A DNA stretch of 64,000 nt from Lasiosphaeria ovina (lineage: Eukaryota > Ascomycota > Sordariomycetes > Sordariales > Lasiosphaeriaceae). The stretch covers positions 2,046,001-2,110,000 of the forward strand of contig JAULSN010000002.1 in the NCBI GenBank assembly GCA_033439765.1. The letters run 5' to 3'. A program made the position numbers and the translations under genes. The notes under the pieces were generated by a model, which was given only the letters and a program-made list of their open reading frames with translations, made no database searches and was not told where the DNA came from. Below are positions 14,395-43,873 of this stretch, one piece after another (the stretch's first letter is position 1; each line of letters opens with the position of its first letter).

Positions 14395-16107
14395 TCACAC
14401 CACAACCTCCTCCAAGCCCAACAAAACATCAAACGCCAACTTCTGCACATCCTCCCTGACACCCACTCCACCACCCCCCTCCTCCCCCTCCCCCTCCCCC
14501 TCCCCCTTCCTAGCCCCCTGCGCGCCATACTCCAAACAAACCCTCACGGCCTCCGCATACCTCCCCCCACACAAGGCCCTCAACTTCTCCCCCTCATCCA
14601 TCAACCTCTGATGCCACTTCCCATGGTCCTCCTCATACTTCTTCGACCAGGTAAACGTCTCCAGCGACTTCCACGTGCCAATCTCCAGCAGCACACACCC
14701 AAGCGAATAGACATCATGTTTGCGCTGAAAGTGCTCCACACGTTTCATCTTGCCGCTGCTGGCGAGGTACGACGGGGACCAGTACAGCCTCTGCTGCGCC
14801 AGCGTCTGACTGATAGCTTTCTTGTCCTGAAAAGCAGTCGACGTGTCGACCTCGTCGCGGGCGTGCCCGAAGCCGACGATGAAGGGCTGGTCGATGCGAA
14901 CGCCCTGGTACGTGGTCATTGACGGCTGGGTGGTGCGAGAGGTGATTTCGGTGGTCACCGCAGACGGCTGGATGAAGAGGATGTTGTGGGAGCGGAAGTC
15001 GTGGTGCACCCAGTCGGACGAGTGGTAAAGGACCATGGCCCGGCAGAGTTTGCGGGCTATGTCGAGACGGACATCGAGTGGAGGGGGCAGGACGACCTGT
15101 TTGGGCTGGAGGAGCTGCCCGAGCGAGTGGACCTTGAGGTTATGGGTTCCGGGAAGGGTGGAAGGAGTAGTAGTAGCTGCGATGATGGGGTCCTGGGGGA
15201 GCCGATATGCCAATGCGTACCGCCATTTGTCGTGTCGTTTGGCAAACTCTTCGAGGTAGCCGGCGCAAGGTAGGAGGAGCAGCTCGGGTCGTTGGACGTT
15301 GGCTAGTAGACCGGAGCTCCTGCTGACGCGGTCTGCTACATCGGCACTCGGTTCCATCCATGGAAGCCAATCCACGACGAGAACATGGCCAGGTGTGCTG
15401 GACGGTATTGCGAGGTACCGGTCAGGAGTCGCCTTTCCCACAGGCTTCCCTTCCATGTTGAGTGACTGGAGGTCCAACTTGTTGCCCAATACGATACCGC
15501 CCACGCCACAAACAGAATGCTTCCATCGGACCTGGGATTCCAGAAATGCATTGCTAGTGGGTGCTGTCTGCTGCGGAGCCTCCTCGTCTGTCGCGCAAAT
15601 AGTGGCCGGCAGAACGGTATCAAGGAACCTCTGGATGGACACCGGGAGGACCTTCTCAAGGCTCTCGTTGTAATCGGCAAGATGGACCAGGGCTTCTTCA
15701 TATGCCGCCTTGTCGCGGATTGACCAAGGGACTCTGTCACGTATTCTCATCTGGCTGACGCCACCGCTGATATTTCCCGCAGGAGAAGAGTATTTCCGGT
15801 CTGCCTTTTCCGCCCTCTCCAGCAACAGCGCGATCGCCCGGAGCGTCCCTTCTACCCCTCGGCGGCGAAATTCATCATGCTCCATGTACCGTCGCAGAGC
15901 GTCAGCTTTGGGATCGTCGTTGCTGTGAAATGCTGGCAAACCCAAGGCCGCGCAAACGTTGACAAACCGCTCCCGCTGATGGAACATGCGCCACCGCAAC
16001 ACGGTAAAGTCGTTGTTGGCGTCCTTGACTGCGAGGCAGACCTTGTAACCCTCCAGGCAAACGTTGAAAAGACCCAGGAGGCCCAGTGCGCTAACTGGGT
16101 CTGCCAT
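14395..16107 (-). CDS. HeLo domain-pseudokinase protein (putative cell-death effector)
   Basis: A single exon encodes 570 aa from the ATG at 16107. The N-terminus (MADPVSALGLLGLFNVCLEG onward, about residues 1-200) is a HeLo-type helical domain like that of HET-S and related fungal proteins, where it inserts into membranes and kills cells. Residues about 290-530 are kinase-like: catalytic-loop equivalent HHDFRSHN at 368-375, then VGFGHAR at 411-417 in place of the Mg-binding DFG, and KHDVYSLGCVLLEIG at 463-477. No glycine loop is evident. The lost Asp argues for a pseudokinase. Near residues 534-548 there is a Gly/Glu-rich run encoded by a CCCCCT-type repeat. It is divergently arranged with the kinase-ankyrin gene, and a MITE lies only 85 bp upstream of its ATG. 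Function is inferred from architecture. Confidence 0.85.
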   Translation of the reverse strand: MADPVSALGLLGLFNVCLEGYKVCLAVKDANNDFTVLRWRMFHQRERFVNVCAALGLPAFHSNDDPKADALRRYMEHDEFRRRGVEGTLRAIALLLERAEKADRKYSSPAGNISGGVSQMRIRDRVPWSIRDKAAYEEALVHLADYNESLEKVLPVSIQRFLDTVLPATICATDEEAPQQTAPTSNAFLESQVRWKHSVCGVGGIVLGNKLDLQSLNMEGKPVGKATPDRYLAIPSSTPGHVLVVDWLPWMEPSADVADRVSRSSGLLANVQRPELLLLPCAGYLEEFAKRHDKWRYALAYRLPQDPIIAATTTPSTLPGTHNLKVHSLGQLLQPKQVVLPPPLDVRLDIARKLCRAMVLYHSSDWVHHDFRSHNILFIQPSAVTTEITSRTTQPSMTTYQGVRIDQPFIVGFGHARDEVDTSTAFQDKKAISQTLAQQRLYWSPSYLASSGKMKRVEHFQRKHDVYSLGCVLLEIGTWKSLETFTWSKKYEEDHGKWHQRLMDEGEKLRALCGGRYAEAVRVCLEYGAQGARKGEGEGEGEEGGGGVGVREDVQKLAFDVLLGLEEVVV

Positions 16108-16192
16108 GGCGAACCGGTGATTGATGCCTACCCGAAGGTGCTTGATGGCGAATTGGTTAGCACACGTGAACGATATTTCAGAGATATAGGTA

Positions 16193-16426
16193 CGTCATTC
16201 CAAGGTTATTTTAGCAAATTGGTGACTTACTCAACGCCTACAAGCTCCCTGCGAATGCCTATATCAACTGTTAGAAAGATTTATCAGTTGTTAGATATAC
16301 CTTTTAATACGTAGTAAAGGCGTCTCTAATACCTCTTAATTACTCTAGGTTCGATCTTTTAGGCGTTTTGCACAGAGTGAGATGGCCTAGAGGTACCTAT
16401 TTTATTAAAATGAACGTAGAATGGTG
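16193..16426 (+). repeat. MITE copy 1 (about 235 bp, TIR-bounded)
   Basis: It begins CGTCATTCCAAGGTTATTTT and ends with an imperfect inverse of that sequence, preceded by TA (16191-16192) and followed by TG (probably mutated TA). Its interior, including TCGATCTTTTAGGCGTTTTG, recurs at 22100-22335. It has more T and A than copy 2 at matching sites. Confidence 0.8.
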
Positions 16427-16808
16427 TGTTTTAGAGATCTGTCACTTCCCTAAAATCCCGGCGACCCTCAGATATCCGAGAGCTGAACTTTGCTTAGATA
16501 ATTAAGCGCGAGCCTTGCGAAATAATACTCCTGGTTTTCGTTAGATTGGAACTCTGCATGACGCCCTTAAGGGGCTCGCTGATTTGTGATTGCTCCCTTG
16601 ATACAGGAGAGATGCGGGCCACTATTTCAGCTGGCCTTGGCGCATGAGTCTAGATGTCCATCGTTAGGCCGCCTCCTGAGGGGTTATCCAACAGGGCAAA
16701 CATTCGTTTTGCAAAACACCTCGGGATATATCATGCCTGATCTCCCTTCGAATTTTTAGCACATCTAGCTCTCAGTTTCGTTGCATATAGTCTCAAAGAT
16801 AGAATAAC

Positions 16809-19800
16809 ATGAGCGCCACGGATTTTGACTTCAGCGACACAGGAGGAGGAGCGGATAGCCCGACGGCTAATTTCATCCACAATGTCGGATGGGTGGTCTC
16901 TAAACACCGCGAGAACTTAGACGAGGCATGGAAGACTGCTTGTGCCGTTTGTGTCCCATTTGGTTTCCCCTTTCCAAGGCCTCTACTAATCCGAGAAGCA
17001 CACATGGGCCGCTGCATTGAAAAGGTTCTCTCCCAGAGAAACAGCAATTTGTGACCACTGGCAACCACCGGCTCAAGCCGGTGCTTCTTCGACGTCAAAT
17101 GCCACGACGAGCCAGCGGACCGTTCGTCCCCAGGACGATGCGCGGTCCACAAATAGCTCCGCGCGCAATATGGGGGCGGTGTTCGACATTCGCAGCTCGG
17201 CGAGCAATCCTGCTGGTACTGTAACTGGAACTTCCGAGTCGTCTTCAAACCACGAGACCGACCGCAACCTGAGTCGATTAACCCGAGGTCCCCCAGTCAC
17301 AGGGGAGCGTCCATGCGAAGAGTGTAGCGGGACTGATCCCATTTCCTTCCCGTACGTATCGGAGCCCGCACCGCTTGCGATCCTCATGTTTCTCGAGGCA
17401 CTTCACAACCACAAGGAGCTGTCATTCACCCCAATGGCTCCTGCACACACGTCAGCCCGCCCCGACTACCTCAGCCATGGCATCTCCTTCAAGGTCACGC
17501 ACGTGCCGTGGCAGCAGGTTCGGGTGGACACCGGTGGTCGCGTGTTGACGGATGCCGTTTACAAGAGGCTCAACCGTCGTGGCTCCCGATCGGCATGGCT
17601 TGAGTTCATGAAGGATCTCGTTGTCACCCACCACATGTCGTACCACGTCTCGCCACAGCATAGGCGGAACGTTGTGAGCCTCTTGGGGCTGGGTTTTGAG
17701 ACAGTGAGCGACGGCGTGGACCAAGATCCGGCACTCGCCCCGGTGATTGCGCTCGAGTATGCTCCGTTCGGGACCCTTGCCGAATTGTACTCCTCGTCGT
17801 CGTTCCTGGCTTCCTATCAGAAAAAGTTATGGATCCTTTCCGACATCGCCGATGGGCTGCAGGCACTGCATCTCTCGAGTGTGGTCCACGGTGACGTCAA
17901 GCCGGAGAATATTCTCATTTTCCCCGACAAGGACCGCGGAATCAAGGCCAAAATCAGCGATTTTGGTTACTCCATGATCGACCCCGCCGCAGGCCCAGAA
18001 TTTCAGACTCTTCCAGGTTATTCAACCGTGTACGCAGCTCCAGAAGCAGTCAGACCGATTCGAGTGGATGAGCTGGAGTATACCGATGTTTATTCCTTCG
18101 GAATCGTCATGTGGCAAACCCTCCTCGGCGGCACTATGCCGTTCTTTGTCCCTCGCTGCCCAGGCCGGCTGCCACTGACACATAAAGAAATCAAAAACCT
18201 AAAGGCAGGCCGAAATCAGGAGGTGGCGAGCCTGTACGGAATTAGAATAAGCGAGGAGGGCTTCTTACGTTTGAACCAAGTCGGTCGGCCACAGTCTGAT
18301 GCCAGATCCCAAGAGCCACCAGATGATGCGGTCAACGAGCTACTGCTCACCATGGCAATGGACACCCTGAAACCGATGACAGATCCAGCGGGCGACACGC
18401 TGACGATTCCTCGCGCTGAGATCTCGGTACTCCTCTCCGCGCTCCGGATTGCCTTGAGCAGTCGCCCATTTGATAGAAGCCTTGCCGCCCTTCGAATTCT
18501 TCTCGGGCAGCCGAACATGAGGGAGCTCATATCCATTTCCAAGATAAAATGGGAAGCCAAGGTGTCCCAAGCTCTCATGACATCCGTCCAGTTTTCGACA
18601 GCCACGACTCGCTCGCGTGAGCTTTATTCGTCCATGTTCGAGAGGTTCTTCATTGTCCTCCAACGTAGCCCCAAGAACACGGATCTGGCTCAGCTGGGTC
18701 ATCTGGACACCGTCCTCGCCCGTCGTCTCTCGCATATTCTCTTGGAGTACAACCTCTTCCGGTTCCTCTCCGGCGACCAGTCGGCCACGACACGGCAAGC
18801 AATCCTGCAGTACCTCGCGCTAACAAGCTCTTCCGGGAATGCAAGCGTGTGCTCCACCGGTCTCGCCATCCATCAACTCCTCGGTGCGAAGATGGAGATA
18901 CCCCTTTTCTACTCCATGGGATCGGCGAAAGACCTGTTGAATGAAGACGTCACGCTCTCGCGGTATGAGCACGAACCGCAGCTCGAATTCCAAGCTCAAG
19001 TCAAAAAGGCCCGCATCCAGATCTCGCAGAGATGCTTTGACGCCGAGCAGAACCTCGTGCTGGCACATGTCCTTCTCAAACATGACGTAAGCCCCATCGA
19101 CGTCAACTGCCAAAACGCGGATGGCGACACAGTGCTGCATATAGCCGTTCGGTCTGGTAATGAACCCCTTGCCTTTAACCTGGTTCAGGACCATGGAGCC
19201 TCCGTTTCGGTAAGGAATAACCTTGACGAGGAACCGATTCATTGGTTACATCGCTTCGAGGCCCAATTTGTTGGAGGGATGGCCGTGATGCTGGCTGAAG
19301 CCGGAGCAAATATCGAAGCCCGGGCCCAGGCTCAGTTCGGCGACCCTGATGATGTCTTGGATTTTTCCATCACTTCTGGACGTCTCTTCTCAACGCCTCT
19401 GCTGCGAGCTATCCAGGCCCGCAACGTTGCGGCAGTAGCAGCCCTCGTAGCTCTCGGGGCGGAGGTCGGGAGAGGACCACTGACAGCATATGACTCGTTC
19501 GAGCTTTGTCCGGTCGGGGTTGCAGCTGCGATGCTGGAACACGAGTGTCTGGAAGTGCTTCTGGCGGAGTGGGAGCCTAACCCCTCAGACGACCCAGACG
19601 GGAGCGAGACAGCCTATCTCTGGGAGCTCGCCATCGCCGGATTCAACCGTATGGACGTCGTCAAGCTTCACGGAGACGAGTACGGCGATCGGATCAAGAA
19701 CACCGTGATGGTTCTGGCCGAGCACATAGGACCGTGCTATCTTGTTCGCAAGCAGCGATCGAGTCTCGACTACATTGTGGATGGCGGAGACTTGGCATGG

Positions 19801-21957
19801 GTTAAAGCGATCCTTGAAAGCCACCACGACGATCCAGCGAGAGCAATCCTCGGAGAGCTCCAGCTTGGACTTGGCCGCGCGGTCTGTCACGGCCACAAGG
19901 AGATCGCTAGGAAAATCAGGAGCTTTGGAGCCCTGCCGTTGCTGCCCGAGAAATGGGCCACGAGCCGATTTGCATTAGGACGCCCAGGACCCTGGTCCCG
20001 GAATCTCGTAGTGCGTCTCAACAAGGAAACGTGGGAGGCTGGCGGGTCTTTGTACAAGACTCAGTGTTGTTTTCATTTCTGCGCCACCGCAGGGGCGAAT
20101 GCGGTATCTGAAGCTTCCGACATGCTCACCGCTCCAGTGTTGAACCCCGACTTGAAACCAGATCTCTCCAAAGAACTGGACCCTACGTTGGAAATGTATT
20201 TGTCAGCCCGCGAGGATTTGTGGACGCAGCCGCGACTTGACAGGCCGGACGAAGAGGGTAATACGCCGTTGTACTTGGCCTTGGCCAATGGAGAATTCGG
20301 GCTTGCGCAGCTTTTCGTGCAGCACGGCGCGTCCTGGTATGGTGATGGATGGTCGATTCCGGCACAGCTGTTTGAGGACGTAATGCCCATCCTCGGGGCA
20401 CAAATCGAGTTCCTGCTGAAAACATGTGGTGCATCGATGCCGTTACGGTTGAAGAGGCGCGTGTTTGACCGACTGTATGCTCAGCCGCACGACTTGCTGG
20501 ACAAGGAAACCGAGATCATTCGATGGCCAACTGAGAGTCAGACAATTTTGACAGCAATCGCCGAGGTTTGCGCCTACCTTGATGAACCCGGAAAGCTGAG
20601 ATTGTGGAGCCTGGTCCTGCCACATTTCCCAGACGCGCCTTCCCTTCTCGCCGGGTCAGAGGGCACTCCAGGAAGGAGCAGAAAGGACCCACTGGGCATC
20701 GCCATTGAGAACGCAGACGTGATCAGCTTTTGTCAAATTTTGGAAGCGCTGAAGAGGGCTTCCGTCTTCCCTGCGTATTCAGCCATGGACCAGGCGAGAG
20801 ATCTCCTCCTGGACGAGCCACCACCAAGAATTGCAGACAACCCTATCAAAGGCCGCATTCTCACCTACCGGCAGAGTCTCAGCAAGATCATTGAGCGGTT
20901 GCTGGGTGCTGGCGACAAATGCAGAACGGGGCGGTCTGACATCCCGGCCAAGATACTGGAGAGGCTCCGGAGCGAATTCCCCATTCTCACCACTAGATAC
21001 GAGCAACGTGGTATCAGCAACGAGGGGCCGAGAGACGAGTTCAAGAAAGAAACGGAGGCCTTCTGCAATGCCTTGCTGGGGTCTCTGCGGTGCTCTCCAC
21101 GCAGCACAGGCTGGAACACAAAGGCAGATGCTGCCGAATTGGAGCGCGAAATCACAAAGTTGCTGTCGCCTTATTTCAAAGCCAAGCTTGGGCCAAACAC
21201 CACCGCCACGGTCGAATTCCTACCGCATAGTAAACCGACTGCTACGAGAGGTAACGAGAAGTCCACGCATGGCCCTGGCCTTGACGCCGTAGCCCTGGTC
21301 AACTGGGACCTGTATCGCAAGGTTCGCCTCATTGAGAACATGGTTACCAAGTCCGCACAGGGGGCTCTGCCGATGCTCGACGAGCTGGAAATCTTGATTT
21401 TGGCGAGCCTCGGGTTCGGGAATGGCTCCTCACAAGTTCCCATCCCCAGTTCCGATCTGCTTATATCTCGAACCCTGGAGCTTGGTTATGCTTCTCGGCC
21501 GGCATATCACAGACCGATAGTTTACCCTCCAGACCCGCGGTATTACACGCGCCCAAACCCCTCTCAACTTTCGCCCATCGCTGCATCCTTCCAGTCGCAG
21601 AGATCAAAGCTGCTTTTCATCCAAGTTCTCCGCCAGATAGTCCCCACAACCAAATCGGTCCCTGAAGCGAAAACTACCGTTGATATCAGGGAGTTGTTGC
21701 TTAGCCACGTCGACGACCTTATCGACCTCGGTGATGCTGTCCCCCTTCCATCAATGAGGCATCCGCTGTTTGGGCGGTACAGGACTGAGACCGGATACAT
21801 GGACCTTCCCATCGGGGCGTACTCAGAGGGGGCACGCCGGCTTAGAAACAGATGGGCAGCAGAGTATCAAAGAGTGGGGATGGAGCTCCCTGAGGAGCTG
21901 AGGGAACTGGAGCTGGACTCGGATGACGAAGATGACTCTGCATACATCGGTTTGTAA
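16809..21957 (+). CDS. Protein kinase-ankyrin repeat protein
   Basis: Two exons: 16809-16946 and 16999-21957, about 1698 aa. The start is the ATG at 16809 (MSATDFDFSDTGGG). I place a 52-bp intron (GTTTGT donor, CTACTAAT branch site, AG at 16998) to join it in phase with the long frame. Residues about 200-450 are a protein kinase domain: HGDVKPEN catalytic loop near 343-350, SDFG near 366-369, YAAPEA near 391-396 and DVYSFGIVMW after it, so Asp/Asn/DFG are all present. A VYKRL near 235 may supply the ATP-contact Lys. Ankyrin-like repeats follow, for example NADGDTVLHIAVRSGN and DEEGNTPLYLALANGEFGLA with long divergent spacers. The tail is acidic (ELDSDDEDDSAY). It is divergent from the HeLo-pseudokinase gene. 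Confidence 0.87.
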
Positions 21958-22099
21958 TGGCACTTCATCATACTTGGTCACTGTACAGAGCCACCTTCTC
22001 CATGGTTCAGCTTATCACATAGTCTGAGTGTTCCTCACACTCATATTCTCAATCATTTACAGTCTGCGGTTCGGATAGAAACCACAGTGACTCCAAGTA

Positions 22100-22335
22100 C
22101 ACCATTCCGCAATTATTTTAGTAAATCGGTTACTTCATCAATGCCTACAAGCCCCCTGCGAGTGCGGACATCAACTGCTGTAAAGATTCTTCAATTTCCG
22201 GATCTGCCTTCTGACATGCAGTAAATATGTCTCCATTACCACTTGATGGCCTCGGATCCGATCTTTTAGGCGTTTGCACAGAGTAAGATAGCCTAGAGGA
22301 GGTACCTATTTTGTTAAAATAACCGTGGAATAATG
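22100..22335 (+). repeat. MITE copy 2 (same family and orientation as 16193-16426)
   Basis: It starts CACCATTCCGCAATTATTTT and ends CCGTGGAATAATG, which is its imperfect inverse. TA flanks both ends (22098-22099 and 22336-22337), indicating TA target duplication and a Tc1/mariner-like mobiliser. It has no coding capacity. Confidence 0.83.
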
Positions 22336-35298: not shown

Positions 35299-38200
35299 AT
35301 GGACACAATCCGAGCTGGACTGCACGAGTCGATGAATGGCCTGGTCGGGAAGGCCCACAAGCCCTCGGATGCTGTGAGCATCGCCGTCAGCACCGTCAGT
35401 GCTGCCAGTGACTCCGACGACTCGACCAAAACGGCCCACGTCGTACATGAAGATGAGACGCTCTCTTCGGTCACGGCCGTCTCACACAGCCAAAGCTCGA
35501 CGGCTTCGATCCAAATCACCCGTCTCATTGACACCAGCCGAGCCATTCGAGGCCACATCTGCGGCTTTGAAGAATACAACGAGACCTTCTTCAAGTCCCT
35601 GGACCTGGAGTCTTATCTCGCGTGCATCTCGGACCACCGCCTCGTCCATATGCCCCCGCGCGGCAGCGACTGGGACCGCGTGCTCAAATCAGCCCAGTTC
35701 TTCGGCCTCCAGCTGTGGAGGCTGGGGTCTAAAGTCGACAGCTTCTGTTTCGGCGCCGAAGTCGCATCCATCACGGCCTTGGGAAGCACCCAGGTCTTGC
35801 TCGAGGTTCGTCGACGCGGTTTGCTGCACGATTTACGTGGCAGTTGACAAAGACTGACTGGGACGTTTAGATTGGACCTCGCCAAGCCAAGGCCCTCCTG
35901 CCAACCTTCAAGGCCCTGTATAAGCTGGCCATCCTCATATCCAACATCAGCCAGATCAACGACATCTTCTCGGGCCCGAGAGAGGTGAAGGAGGCCGTCG
36001 CTCACCTCTACTGCGACTTGGTCGAGTTGGTGGGCGACATTGCGGTTCTGTACCGGAAGAAGATCAGCAATCTGAAGCCGGGCGCCTCCGTCGTCCTCAA
36101 CTTTGAAGCTTCTTTTGGGAGCGCCATGGCTGGCATTCTGAAGAGGCGAGACCAAGTCACCGCGAAGCTATGGTCACTCAAGCTCGGCAGTAGAGTCGCT
36201 GGGCTCACCCTCGAGGCCATTCGGCATCGACTGAAGCAAGATCGCTCGGCCCGGGGCGCCTTCTACGATCAGGTCTCGGACAGCATGAAACGCGCCGAGG
36301 GCACTTGCGAGTGGCTCAAAAGTCCCCTTGTCGAGTTCTTTAGGAGCCACGACAAGGCGCTGACAATCACGGGCGACATCGGTACCGGGAAGACCTTTCT
36401 TTCTGGGTGGATTGAAGAACGTTTGCAACGCCCCCTTGATCACGCTCAGTACTCAACTTTGGCGTACAGTTTCCGTAAGTCTTCACATCTCCATGCACCG
36501 TGCCTAGCCATGGGCTCTTAGCTGATCTTCCCCAGCCTTCGATTCTCCCGCCGGGTGCACTCCACTCGCATTCCTCAAGAGCATTTTGTTCCAGCTTCTA
36601 GAGAAGAACGTGGGTGACTTCGGCTTGTACGAGAAGCTTGTTGCTGCGTTTGAGGCGTACGACAAGCACCACAGCACGGAAAAGCTCGAGTCTTCTCTCT
36701 GGAGGGCCTTCGAGTCTGGGCTCCGGACGCTGAACAGTCGCCTTGTCAACCTCGTTATCGTCGTGGATGGCTTCCACGACATTGTTGGGCCACAGACCCC
36801 TTTGGACTTCCATAAGACACTGCGTGGATGCATTGGGAAGTTCAAGACAATCCGCATGATCACCTTGTCCAAAGCCATCTCGCATCTGAGCGATGGCTGC
36901 AGGCATTTTATCATCACGCCTCAACACTTGCAGGTCGACATCAAGGCGTATTTCCGGCAGCGTTTTGCCGAGTTCCAGTGCTTTGGTCAACTCAAGCCCG
37001 AAGCAAAGGAAAAAACTGTGCATGAGCTTTCTCTGAAAGCCAAATCATCCTTCATTTGGGCCTACCTTGTGGCTCAGATGCTAGCAAAGGAGGCGCCGAC
37101 TTCTTCGCCTGAGGCCTTTTCTCAGGCCGCCCACCACGCCTCCACCAGCTCCGACGAGATCTTGAAGAAGCTTGTTGCCAGAATCTCTTTGAAGAACGAC
37201 ACCACCGAAGCACTGCTTTGCTCCATGCTTGCTGCCGACAGACCTCTGTCGGTTGCCGAGTTATCTGAGCTTTTGCGGGTCGACATCAAGGCTCGGCGTT
37301 TTGGAGTTGCGGTTGACGTCCCGAAGCACATCAAATCAGCTTGCAGTGATATTGTGGTCATCGAGAATGGCAGCGCTCACTTCAAGAGCAGGACAATCCG
37401 CACTTACATGCATGGCCTGATGGGCAAATCTTTGCCGGCGCCTCGAGATGCTCAACGCCACTTGACCTTGGCCCTTCTTCTCTACTCCAAGCTCACGTTA
37501 CCGGATGTCTCGGAGCCATCTTTTGACCTTCTTGGAGATACAGTCATGGATCAAAACTTCCACTCTCACGCACTTCTATACTACGCTGTTCGACACTGGC
37601 AATCTCACTTTCGTGCGTCCAGCTTCTACGGAGCGAAAGGGGAGCTGGTTTTGACCAAGGACTTTCACGAAGTTTTCCCAGCCTCATGCCATTTCGCCCT
37701 CCTCGAACGGTCGAGCTGCTACCATAACCTGACCACGCCATCGCTGGTTGAGTTCCACGACTTCTCTCTGAAGGTTCGAGAGGCATGCTTTGGCCAGAAG
37801 CACATATCGGTTCTGCAGACCTTGATTATTCTCGGCAACATCCACATCACGGCTTCGGACACTCTCGTCGGGGCCAAATTCTTCTACAGAGCGGCGTCTG
37901 TAGGGAAGGTGATTTTGTCACAACTCAGTGCGGTCGTGGTGACATGCACAAATTACTTCCTACAATACACGGAGACCATCACCATCACGACGCGCACCGA
38001 GATTGTCACCTACCGGGAAGAAATGATCCTCTTCATGATTGAGATTTGCAAGGGCAAGCACGGAGCATCCAGCGATCTGGTGATCAAATGGTACGAAGTG
38101 CTGGCCAAATTGTATGTTGACATCAAGGAAGAATTCCGAGCGACGTTGATCTACAAGGAGCTTTACGAGATCTATGTCGTTCGTTTCGGCAGAAAGTCGC

Positions 38201-41200
38201 CACAGGCTCGCCGCCTTACAGAGCATCTCGGAGGACTTGACATTGTCCTCAAAGGCGAAACGAAGACAGACGTCAAGGAGTATGCCGGGTTCTTGCTGGG
38301 GGCCACCGAAGATCTCAATATGGAAGACGAGCGACGGATCTCCATCCTTCTCCGGCTTGCTCTGTTTTACGAGTCTCAAAAGCAGTGGTACCTGGCCGAG
38401 AACCTATACATCAAGCTCTGGAGACACATCTCAGAGGTTTGCCGCATCAAAGCAACCATTGAGCTTCACATCACCAAGATCACCATCGCCGTTGAGTACG
38501 TTCGGTTTTTGCAAAGACTGAAGCGTAACGAAGAAGCTTGCAACATCTTGATCTGCCTTTGGGCCGAATATGAGCATCACAGCTTTGAAGAGAAGAAAAT
38601 CATCGTCCTCATCAGGGAGGTCGGCGTCTTGTTCAAAGTGTGCGGCCTTCTTGACGTTGCCATTTCAATCTTGACCAAGGTCTGGGGCTGGTTCAAGGGC
38701 AAAGGCAAGGTGGATGACGAGGATGCGGTCCAGACTACTGTATTGATTACAGAGGTCGTTGAGGAAATTACCCAGACCACAGTGACCACCAAGACGACCA
38801 CCACCACAACCTCGGAGACTACCGAGACGGTTGTCAGGGAGATCTTCGAGACGCATCTCACGAGGTGCAAGAAGAGCAAGGTTGATGCCGTCTTCTTCAA
38901 GTCATGCGTCGCCCTCGCCAACCTCTACATCAAGCTCCAGAACTGGGAGCAGGCCGAGATTGTCATCAAGCAGACCCTGGAGATCACCTGGAAGGCTATC
39001 CTGACGGCAGAGGTCACCATCAAGATTACCGAACACTTCGCTTCGGAATGCATCTTGGTTGCCACTCGCCTGGCCGTATGCTATCACCAACAGAAGTTGT
39101 TCGATAAGGCCGAGAGTATCTACCTCCGAATCTTCCACGCGTGCCTTGCGTCCTTGCACTTGGAAGATGTCAGAGTTGAAGAGACCCTTGCCGTGCTCAT
39201 CAAGTTCTACGAGGAACACCATCGCCACGAGAAGGTCATTGAGGTCTATGTCGAGCTTCTTGCGAGGTACCGCAAACAACTCGGACACACCCACAAGCTG
39301 ACCATCAAGGTCTTGTATGCCTTGGCTACTCATTGCGAACTCTTGGGACGCCACGGTGCGTATGACTATTACATCGAGATCGTCACAGTGCTCAACAAGC
39401 ACAAAAAGCATTGCCATCATGATGCTTTCCAGGCAGCCGTGGTCTTGGTCAGGTACTACCATGAGAGGAAGTGCTGGACGGAACTCCAACACATCTGTCA
39501 CGTTCTGTGGGAGACGTTTTTGCACCACCACAAGGAAGTCCACTTTTCAGAGGACATCATCCAGCTCGTCTTTGAGAAGTATGTCTACGTACTAGAGTTT
39601 CACGCCAAGGTTGAGCTTTCTGTGCTTTACGACATCACAAAAAGGTTCCATGAGACGGTCACAGTTGTGTTTGGTGTCGCCGCGTCCATCGTGATCGTGG
39701 CGATGCTTTCCCTAGCCAAGATCTGCGAGCGGCACGAGAAGCATTACCAAGAGTCGATCACGATCTACGAGGAAGTCATCAAGCGCATCACCACGACCAA
39801 AACTACGACGACCACAACTACGGAGATTACAATCAACACCGTTAAAAAGCGTTTGTCGAAGGTTTATGTGACACTCATTACCTCTGGTTCTTCGAAGACG
39901 GCTGTCACCGTCACGACAATCGAGCGAGCCATTGTCATTTGTCTCGAGTCGTATGCCCAGCTACGCATTGAGTTTGGATGCTGGCATGAGAAAACACTTT
40001 TCAAGCTGAGGGACGTCATCGTTTTGTACCAGAAGCTGGGGAGCAAGGAGTCACACGCAAAGATCATCGAATTACTGCAGGTTGCTTTTATTTCCATTAC
40101 GACAACCACGTGTGGCTCTTTGTCTCTCTACCATGCCGCAGCGACTCTTGCATCGATCTACATTACAGCCGGCCTTGCCAAGCAGGGCCTCGCGCTGGTG
40201 CGTCATTTGCGTCATCTGGTCATCTTTGGGAAAGACTTTGAGATCAGCACAGAGATCAAGGTCACTCTTGACACATTGTCTATCAGCAAGGCCACCTTTG
40301 TCTTCCTCGTGTCATTTGAGCAGCGCATCACAGAAAAGATAGTCATGACGTTCTCGGAACTCATGGCCAGTACACTGCTCGAAATCTCTCTCTACGAGCA
40401 GTACAAGAAGGTCATCGAGATTGGGACGGAGACTGAAATCATGCTTCAGCACGGTTCCAGGCTACGGGCCTTCTGGGTCGAGCAAAGAGAGGATCATTTG
40501 CTCGCAGTGCTCGACAAAAAGCTGTTTCACATCTTCAAGACCAAGTACTCGGCCTTTATAACGACACACGATGACTACACTCGCATCTTCTACCTTGCCT
40601 TATCAGCGTCTCTTGCAAAGGATGAGGCCAGGGTCGACTTTGCGGCGTTGGCATGCAAGTCTGGCAATGCCAAGGTAGCCGAGCTGCTTGAGTCAGGCGA
40701 CTTCAAGAAAGCTCTAGAGGTTGCAAAGTGCACCTTCCACTTTGCCGGCAAGCAGAAGTTCTACGGCAACTTGCAGCACGTTCGGTATGCTTACAGGCTA
40801 GCCGAGTTGATGGCTGGAATCGACGCCCGGAAGCCGACCGACGCCAAGCTCTGGGCCGAGTTCCTCAAGCTCTCCAAGGAAATCACGAACGAGGCATTAG
40901 CCATTTTCAAGGCGAACGGCATTGACTTTGTGCGATTGAGGTTTGAAGACCTGAGTGGGATTGTGCGCCTGCTCGGAAGTCAGCAGAACTACGGAGAACT
41001 CGAGGTACGTACAGGTTCACGTTCGACAAGTTCCCTTCCCCAAAAGAGTAGCATTGCTACGCCTTTAACCACAGTATGCTGACAGTTACACTCACAGGCC
41101 CTCCTACTCAAGCTTTGGCAGTCGCGCGAAGTGCAAAAGACGTGGCATAGCGGCCGCGTCCTCAGCATCGGGAAACTGATGGTGCATGCCCACGTTGCCG

Positions 41201-42378: not shown

Positions 42379-43873
42379 TCATTTAGTCCAGACTAAAACT
42401 AGTTCTAGAGGGTCCTGCCTCTTGGAAACCACTTGTTTAGGTATTTCTTTTCGACCAGAGGATCCTGGCTCTCTCCGAGCCTGGGGTTTGGAGGGAACCT
42501 GCCTCTTGAAATCAGCTTGTTTAGCTAGTTTTTCTTTTGACTGGAGAACCCTGCCTTTCTTCGAGCTCTGTGTTGCACTGCGAGGATCCTGCCCCTCCTC
42601 GGGCGTGTTGGCCGGGAACAGCGTCTTCCACACCTTGGCCAGCACCGACTTGGCGAGGTTGGGCATCTGCGCGATGCCCGTGTACCACCGGAAGCTCTCC
42701 ACGCTGTTGGTGATGATGTGCAGCCGCACGTTGTTGCTCCACTTCGCGCGGTCCTCGTCGCCCAGGAAGATCCACACGCCGATCTTGGAGTCGACGGCCA
42801 TGACCGCCGGCGTGGTGCCGTGCCTGCGCAGGATGAACTGCATCAGCAGCGACTCGTTGACGTCGAGCAGGAGCCGGAACTTGTCCACCATCCATATTAG
42901 CGTCACTTCGGAGCTGGTGTTGCCCGGGTCGTCCGAGGCGCCGCCGACGCGCGTGTAGAAGCCAGGAAAGAGGGTTTGGTTGACCTTTGCGTAGGATCCG
43001 TCTCCGTAGATGGCGCAGGGGAAGCTTTGGCGGTGCTCCGACACGGCGCAGGCGTGGGCCACCTTGTGGATGGCGTCCCGGTTGTCGATTTGCTCGGAAA
43101 AGACGTATTTATCGCTGTGGAAGGTGAAGGGTCCAATATCTAGCTTGCCGATGGACGAAACCGTGTCCCAAACGTCGATGAAGGGCACAGCGATGTTCTC
43201 CTTGTGCAGGAAGGCCGTGTGCTTGGTCAGCTTAGTCTTGTTTTGCGCCTTGGACCACTCGTTGAAGATTTCCTCGATTATTATGTCAAAGTCGTCGAGC
43301 TCCTTGCCTTCTTTGACGTTGTTGGGGTTGAGCGACAGGTCTTGCTGCCACTTGTAGATGCCCACGTCGGCGATGAAGGACGCGAGCATACGAGCCACAT
43401 AGACGCCGCGCGGGAAGCCGAAGAACAGCCTGTCGGGGTTTGTTGCCTGGTGGCTCCAGTTCCACATAGCGGTAGAGATTGCGGATTATGTCGGGGGAGG
43501 CGGCGGCGAACATCAGGTCATTGGTCTTGTGCAGATCCCTGTAGGACCCCAGGCCCGGCTGGTACAAGACGGCCTGGTTTCGCTTGCCGTCGGCCGACTT
43601 GGGCTCGAAGATGCAAGACGTCTTGGCCACGTTGCTGATCTTGTGCAGTTTCAGGTCACGGATCTGGTTGTTCCCCGTGCCGTCGATGCAGATGATATGG
43701 TCCGTGGGGAGGCTGGCATCGCGCGAGCCGAGGTTGTACTCGTCTGCAGGCATGCCATAGATGGTATCGAACACGACGTAGTAGCCACGAAGCTTGGGTT
43801 AACCCGAAGTCGATAAATCCTGAGAGCTTGAGCGAGATGGCGGGCCGCGGATCGACACGGAACTGGAGGCCAT
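42379..43873 (-). pseudogene. Damaged DUF2235 / Tle1-like alpha/beta-hydrolase gene
   Basis: A possible exon 1 (43873-43804, MASSSVSIRGPPSRSSSQDL) joins across a 60-bp intron to HIICIDGTGNNQIRDL, the family's N-terminal D-G-T motif. The frame then breaks near 43455-43475 and resumes one base off as RLFFGFPRGVYVARMLASFI, followed by FIDVWDTVSSIGKLDIGPF and a long C-terminal part ending in a basic tail at 42379. In relatives the nucleophile elbow reads G-F-S-R-G; here it is G-F-P-R-G, so the catalytic Ser is absent. Relatives are phospholipase-like hydrolases or uncharacterised fungal proteins. The frame break could be an assembly error, but the missing Ser supports loss of hydrolase activity. 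Confidence 0.75.

Follow-up and report, generated by a model that had tools for sequence, protein, structure and literature searches.

A divergent HeLo-pseudokinase and kinase-ankyrin gene pair of Lasiosphaeria ovina is part of a recurrent gene module

The HP1/KA1 locus

In the 51.7-Mb genome of the ascomycete Lasiosphaeria ovina, we analyzed a stretch of 64,000 nucleotides, hereafter called the window (C12:2046001-2110000, with C1, C2, C3, etc., as contig labels of this genome), where a gene for a HeLo-domain protein with a kinase-like domain, named HP1, and a gene for a protein kinase with ankyrin repeats, named KA1, lie divergently and head-to-head; their counterparts elsewhere in the genome are named HP2 to HP6 and KA2 to KA5. 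We found that this arrangement is real and that it is part of a recurrent gene module, larger than was first noted in a preliminary description of the locus. HP1 (minus strand) and KA1 (plus strand) are separated by 701 bp from ATG to ATG, in agreement with the head-to-head orientation and the distance of about 0.7 kb given in that description.

HP1 occupies positions 14395..16107 of the minus strand (ATG at 16107, stop at 14395) and encodes 570 amino acids, being identical to the L. ovina protein B0T24DRAFT_694844 (P0001) except for a 35-residue stretch that is absent from that 535-residue record, where it was perhaps annotated as an intron. The HeLo domain proposed for its N-terminus was confirmed at 15598..16095 of the minus strand (residues 5-170), with two stretches, residues 5-108 and 119-170, matching the Pfam family PF14479 (8.1e-17, 62.1 bits, cut-off 23.2); the most hydrophobic 19-residue segment of the protein is also N-terminal (residues 9-27, Kyte-Doolittle 1.46), and the top match of the first 210 residues in the PDB is the HeLo domain of HET-s (2wvo, residues 6-108), a weak hit that is non-significant alone (E 0.15). 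Residues about 230-530 (14518..15420, minus strand, with limits judged from alignments) form a kinase-like domain that matches DUF7580 (PF24476) with 2e-9 and 38 bits (cut-off 27) and Pkinase with 26.6 bits, under its cut-off of 31.7. The whole of HP1 found only weak kinase matches in the PDB (E of at least 0.074). Matches in NCBIfam all fell far under the cut-offs.

The catalytic motifs of this domain were compared in an alignment of HP1 and its relatives (A2, ten sequences, half of them without the N-terminus). The catalytic-loop motif HHDFRSHN (14983..15006, minus strand, residues 368-375) keeps the catalytic Asp and Asn, with H368, H369, D370 (the HRD-type Asp, present in 10/10), F371, R372, and N375 invariant and S373 and H374 conserved in at least 90%. 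At the DFG site, by contrast, HP1 reads GFGHAR (14857..14874, minus strand, residues 412-417), so that the DFG Asp is absent, as had been described; Gly412 is found in all ten sequences, the site being GFG, but GFS in P0008 and GLG in P0011. Furthermore, the column that holds a Lys in HP2-HP6 is occupied by L, N, T, S, or G in the A2 sequences, HP1 included. Judged from these residues, with the DFG Asp and the beta-3 Lys both lost, HP1 is a pseudokinase. In its pseudo-activation segment, Ser423 (14839..14841, minus strand) is a Ser in 10/10 sequences, and we propose it as a candidate phosphosite.

The open reading frame (ORF) of KA1, at 16990-21957 of the plus strand, agrees with the coordinates given earlier, which missed a likely first coding exon (16809..16946, plus strand, ATG at 16809) recognized by comparison with the ortholog P0015. 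This exon would be followed by a predicted intron of 52 nucleotides with a TACTAAT branch point (16947..16998, plus strand) and by a second exon (16999..21957, plus strand), giving a predicted protein of 1698 amino acids; the intron is one of 18 frame-keeping splices and was chosen because it restores the length (1698 amino acids) and the N-terminal alignment of P0015. The protein kinase domain (17479..18144, plus strand) matches Pkinase with 66.7 bits (2.9e-18) and has AVYKRL, HGDVKPEN, and an intact DFG, and Pfam detects two blocks of ankyrin repeats at 19060..19245 and 20230..20337 of the plus strand (Ank_2, 4.1e-11), so the view of KA1 as an active-looking kinase fused to ankyrin repeats holds as far as motifs can tell. 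The N-terminal pieces of KA1 had no Pfam match, and no nucleotide-binding (NB) domain was detected in KA1 by Pfam. KA1 thus appears to be built for catalysis and HP1 not, with the reservation of the Asp and Asn kept in the catalytic loop of HP1.

The intergenic region common to both genes (16108..16808), which would hold the divergent promoters, contains the first copy (16190..16422) of a repeat resembling a miniature inverted-repeat transposable element (MITE). The second copy (22097..22331) lies 3' of KA1 and is 76% identical to the first, and its end, when reversed, can be matched with 28 bp at the beginning of copy 1; both flank KA1 outside the coding sequences, and no third copy was found in a genome search. 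A transposon carrying the HP1/KA1 pair was set aside as less likely, given that the flanking MITE-like copies are only two, old, 76% alike, and non-coding.

Recurrence of the pair in the genome and in other fungi

The L. ovina genome contains 16 HeLo matches corresponding to 14 genes; in six of these, similarity to HP1 reveals a kinase-like domain in frame, and five of the six have a head-to-head kinase and ankyrin neighbour at a distance of 347-701 bp. Besides HP1/KA1 on C12 (701 bp by the first ATG), these are HP2/KA2 on C1 (kinase 74 bits, ankyrin 83 bits, gap 371 bp), HP3/KA3 on C28 (45.5 and 32 bits, 450 bp), HP4/KA4 on C23 (71 and 90.5 bits, 347 bp), and HP5/KA5, also on C23 (60.6 and 79.5 bits, 466 bp). 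In KA3-KA5, the kinase and the repeats are in successive open frames that we read as a single gene with introns, and the 3' flanks of HP3-HP5 were covered as ORF lists only. The DFG Asp is replaced by Gly in all six HeLo-kinase-like proteins, and KA1-KA5 all keep, as judged by eye, the VAIK-type Lys, the catalytic-loop Asp, and the DFG-site Asp (DFS in KA5). HP2 and HP4 match each other with 245 bits, all other HeLo comparisons being at most 100, and KA2 and KA4 with 322 bits, all other kinase-ankyrin comparisons being below 100; because both members match far above all other comparisons, HP2/KA2 and HP4/KA4 were duplicated as one unit. The remaining pairs are much diverged, with 22-36% identity in aligned regions.

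As controls, we took five HeLo genes that lack the kinase-like part and scanned the larger ORFs of their 4.5-kb 5' flanks, where a protein kinase neighbour was found in none of the five. These flanks contained a NACHT-type gene with a HET-s-like motif plus a Dus gene, a transposase, weak APH-type and F-box-like matches, a patatin, and ORFs with no informative matches; since the first control HeLo protein carries a HET-s prion-type motif (78.5 bits), the control set recovers a known type of pair. Three of the eight other HeLo genes were left out, namely C3:821442 (a broken gene), C7:43581, and C28:360980; a genome-wide kinase listing has no entry near the latter two, which is no proof of absence, because 122 of its 346 candidates were scored and four of the five partner kinases (KA1, KA3, KA4, and KA5) escaped it. 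The difference between 5/6 and 0/5 kinase neighbours gives a Fisher p of 0.013 on these small numbers, or 0.040 if the C3 relic is counted as a control with a kinase, and the chance of at least five pairs in six is 1.5e-7 if the 346 first-look, unverified kinase candidates are placed randomly in 51.7 Mb. Because five of the six HeLo-kinase-like genes have a kinase-ankyrin partner, the window pair is no chance neighbourhood, a possibility that we reject on the basis of this recurrence, the co-duplication, and the statistics.

Two further loci resemble the pairs. At C3:817101-823469, the frame of the broken HeLo gene (56.6 bits) is interrupted shortly behind the HeLo domain and followed by kinase-like remnants seen by eye, and the gene lies opposite a fragment that resembles a kinase N-lobe by eye and has no Pfam match; this is perhaps a decayed sixth pair. 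At C2:126001-132961, a canonical kinase with no ankyrin repeats detected is the head-to-head neighbour of a 629-residue protein that matches kinases weakly and whose N-terminus has no match in Pfam, HeLo included; this possible pair of another kind was excluded from the count.

The kinase and DUF7580 domains are also found in one chain, with the DUF7580 domain behind the kinase, in three ORFs (955 residues on C12, 843 on C32, and 840 on C27), and in these three fusions the DFG site also starts with Gly. Considering the fusions together with the head-to-head pairs, the kinase and DUF7580 meet in cis and, by neighbourhood, in trans, and it is possible that the fusions represent a single-chain form of the same signalling step.

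Conservation of the linkage in relatives had been named beforehand as the point on which the preliminary description should be tested, and in six further cases, from fungal genomes or metagenomes, both partners were found on one contig. Our homolog searches, each restricted to the approximately 8000 candidates with the most shared words, yielded 12 further HP1 orthologs (P0002-P0011, P0042, and P0043, with the window's own P0001 outside this number) and 10 KA1 orthologs (P0015-P0024), the distant P0012-P0014 and P0025-P0041 being uncounted. A partner on the same contig was present for 6/12 HP1 and 6/10 KA1 orthologs, a shared contig being judged from equal size in bp and in two cases also from consecutive locus tags. 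Those two cases are Sarcosagium campestre, a metagenome-assembled genome (M1825_001738/001739), and Glonium stellatum (20,697 bp, AOQ84DRAFT_225374/225375), while the other pairs share a scaffold only in Aaosphaeria arxii (2,850,607 bp) and Apodospora peruviana (4,845,350 bp), or lie in two metagenome contigs of 16,357 and 31,664 bp (jgi16357 and jgi31664). Strict adjacency is therefore seen in L. ovina and, through consecutive locus tags, in two further species, and the six linked contigs say nothing on orientation. The six HP1 orthologs lacking a found partner are on contigs of 2.0-16.6 kb, and the four such KA1 orthologs on contigs of 6.4, 14.6, 15.6, and 63.3 kb, those of 14.6 and 15.6 kb being from Fusarium.

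The hosts of the linked proteins belong to the Sordariomycetes, the Dothideomycetes, and one unplaced genus of Pezizomycotina. The distance matrices of HP1 and KA1 over seven pairs, some of whose proteins are partial, correlate with r 0.96, a value reached by 4 of 5040 permutations, and both trees contain the grouping (jgi16357,(Sarcosagium,(L. ovina, Apodospora))), with Glonium, Aaosphaeria, and jgi31664 placed differently. Such correlated distances indicate the joint transmission of HP1 and KA1, and contact between the two proteins is not implied by this itself.

Comparison with known cell-death systems

In animals, RIPK3 phosphorylates the pseudokinase of MLKL and thereby frees its helical bundle (PMC12881547, PMC11476962), and the four-helix bundle (4HB) fold of MLKL is related to HeLo (PMC9815663, PMC12881547), these and the other papers cited here being taken from the portions of their text available to us. 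The likeness to our pair is that a helical bundle of the membrane-attacking type is joined to a pseudokinase, here beside an active-looking kinase as its likely upstream partner; the differences are the lack of specific sequence kinship, the lack of a detected RIP homotypic interaction motif (RHIM), the ankyrin repeats on the kinase, and the head-to-head genes. With a profile of the kinase-like part of HP1, no MLKL was found among the 39 PDB sequences with E of 0.01 or less, and the best solved structures for the HP1 family were IRE1 and CLK, also with B-Raf and others; the A2 profile has 427 positions and, because the N-terminus is absent from half of the A2 sequences, probably covers little of the HeLo part. 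For the kinase of KA1, no RIPK was among the best 60 of 1324 PDB matches, which MSK1, MK2/3, and Aurora lead. When A2 was compared with alignment A3 by hhalign, the aligned region was confined to the catalytic loop (41 columns, probability 94.6). Thus, of the MLKL/RIPK-like arrangement of the preliminary description, the parallel of design stands and membership of the MLKL or RIPK families does not, and as far as the sequences indicate, common descent would run only via the published HeLo/4HB link.

Closer to L. ovina, the pair fits, in its gene order and domains, the known fungal two-gene clusters in which a pore-former gene lies beside a likely receptor gene and which are conserved in several species. 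The het-S/nwd2-type clusters of HeLo and NOD-like receptor (NLR) genes (PMC9815663) also place a HeLo effector beside a likely receptor with superstructure-forming repeats, but here the receptor would be a kinase without a detected NB domain, and the effector has a pseudokinase and no amyloid motif that we could find. No RHIM or fungal amyloid motif family was found by Pfam at E of 1 or less in HP1, KA1, or the N-terminal pieces of KA1, although short motifs can escape such a search. With neither an NB domain nor an amyloid motif found by Pfam, an NLR/amyloid system was rejected, and for an effector that carries a pseudokinase and showed no amyloid motif, phosphorylation would be a more likely means of signalling than amyloid. 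In the fungal gasdermin clusters of the HET-Q1/HET-Q2 type, an enzyme, often with repeats, lies beside the pore-former that it activates (PMC10197012, PMC12881547), with the difference that a kinase here stands for the protease and a HeLo-pseudokinase for the gasdermin. Fungal HeLo/HELL proteins with a kinase or pseudokinase domain differ from our pairs in that no paired active kinase was found mentioned for them in the parts of the literature available to us. No description of a HeLo-pseudokinase/kinase-ankyrin module was found in titles and abstract openings, a set with few subscription papers and no preprints where a prior mention is possible, and DUF7580 was named in no paper found.

Other HeLo and defence-type genes of this genome are also of interest. 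At C12:2683134-2689500, a HeLo gene that also encodes the HET-s 218-289 motif (78.5 bits) has as its neighbour a NACHT-type gene in which a HET-s-like motif scores 23.5 bits, under the cut-off; the two have the sequence features of a classical het-S/nwd2-type amyloid-signalling cluster. At C29:2532706-2536203, a HeLo domain is fused in one open frame to a ubiquitin-conjugating (UQ_con) domain, an odd effector combination, and at C1:8304101-8308600, another HeLo gene has a patatin-like phospholipase as its divergent neighbour. In the window itself, positions 35871-41079 hold a large tetratricopeptide-repeat protein and, upstream in another frame, an NPHP3_N-like P-loop piece (23.6 bits, just under the cut-off), which together look like an NLR gene, intron-split or broken; near it, a Tle1-like phospholipase domain (T6SS_Tle1-like_cat, 90 bits) is found at 42379-43485.

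A proposed kinase-to-pseudokinase switch and its alternatives

With six linked contigs, four more pairs in the same genome, one co-duplication, and the cis fusions, functional coupling of HP1 and KA1, which had only been inferred earlier, now has strong circumstantial support, and we consider it very probable. We favour, by a modest degree, a sensor kinase and HeLo-pseudokinase death switch that would work like RIPK3-MLKL, our confidence in cell death as the output being somewhat lower than in the kinase-to-pseudokinase switch. In such a switch, KA1 would sense something through its repeats and, once active, would phosphorylate the kinase-like domain of HP1, with the Ser423 segment after GFGHAR as the candidate target; the kinase-like domain, which would restrain the HeLo bundle until modified, would then let go, the HeLo protein would oligomerize, its N-terminal helix would enter the plasma membrane, and the cell would die, as in non-self recognition or defence. 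We infer all of the steps beyond the gene arrangement, i.e., sensing, phosphorylation, release, and killing, by analogy.

Several points weigh against this interpretation and should be kept in mind. Since HP1 retains the catalytic-loop Asp and Asn, it is predicted to be inactive from its GFG site and the absent Lys, and the other family members differ, with HP2-HP6 (5/6) lacking the HRD Asp, yet having a Lys in the column where HP1 has none. DUF7580 scores above the cut-off in HP1 (38 bits) and HP6 (41 bits) only, so that the kinase-like domain of HP2-HP5 (DUF7580 13-24 bits) rests on similarity to HP1, and the HeLo match of HP5 is partial and barely above the cut-off (24.6 bits). HP6, on C12, has no kinase in its 4.6-kb 5' flank, with a Zn-cluster regulator on its 5' side and a carboxylesterase on its 3' side. 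Pairing was scored from the HeLo genes, and kinase-ankyrin genes away from HeLo genes are uncounted. Outside L. ovina, with about 8000 candidates scored per search, no partner turned up for the two Fusarium kinase-ankyrin orthologs or for one on the 63-kb metagenome contig; for the 63-kb contig, a true absence is possible, and split gene calls can also hide a partner. Lastly, the structure model of HP1 from ten sequences was poor (mean predicted local distance difference test, pLDDT, 47.8; predicted template modelling score, pTM, 0.45) and was unused.

Three other explanations deserve attention. Pseudokinases act as baits in plant immunity, and the pseudokinase of HP1 could likewise be a bait with KA1 as its guard or inhibitor, in which case an intruder's enzyme would modify the pseudokinase and binding, not phosphotransfer, would free the HeLo domain; the conserved pairing and the co-duplication would look alike under this arrangement, but the three catalytic residues are kept in five of five partner kinases, which implies selection for catalysis, and we regard a bait as unlikely. 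Rather less likely still is a toxin-antidote, allorecognition, or drive element in which HP1 kills, KA1 restrains it, and the pair is costly to lose. The patchy occurrence across distant ascomycetes, the repeats flanking KA1, and the C3 locus, where the broken HeLo gene faces a kinase-like fragment (by eye, no Pfam match), would all suit such an element; on the other side, the partner is an activator in the fungal two-gene clusters described in the published texts available to us (PMC12881547, PMC10197012), and five diverged pairs in one genome better suit a receptor repertoire. The weakest explanation, already disfavoured and in our judgement improbable, is that HP1 and KA1 have separate jobs and became neighbours by gathering in defence-rich regions with shared promoters, as might be thought given that the 162 NLRs of L. 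ovina mark the upper limit of the range for the Sordariales covered by the accessible part of PMC12258605, that ankyrin and kinase genes are common in this genome, and that joint inheritance alone gives correlated distances, whereas kinase neighbours are found for 0/5 HeLo genes without a pseudokinase vs. 5/6 with one (Fisher p 0.013), and the Glonium orthologs, from another class and 50% and 44% identical, still have adjacent tags.

Returning to the kinase-to-pseudokinase switch, we tentatively extend it to filamentous fungi in general, which may have several necroptosis-like modules per genome, each with an ankyrin sensor kinase wired to a dedicated head-to-head HeLo-pseudokinase killer and with DUF7580 as a regulatory pseudokinase family; the pairs thus suggest a job for DUF7580. 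If true, such modules would either have evolved independently as a counterpart of RIPK3-MLKL or preserve an old design outside the animals. The published link between fungal HeLo proteins and animal necroptosis consists of two elements, the helical bundle and signalling by amyloids (PMC12881547, PMC9815663, as far as their available text goes), and for the kinase-to-pseudokinase step we found no fungal counterpart in the accessible parts of the literature. A 2025 review, in the portion available, asks that fungal HeLo/4HB proteins, and the extent to which necroptosis is conserved, be studied more broadly (PMC12881547), for which these pairs provide ready candidates in a Sordariales species, and their head-to-head pairing provides a simple genomic rule for finding such modules elsewhere.

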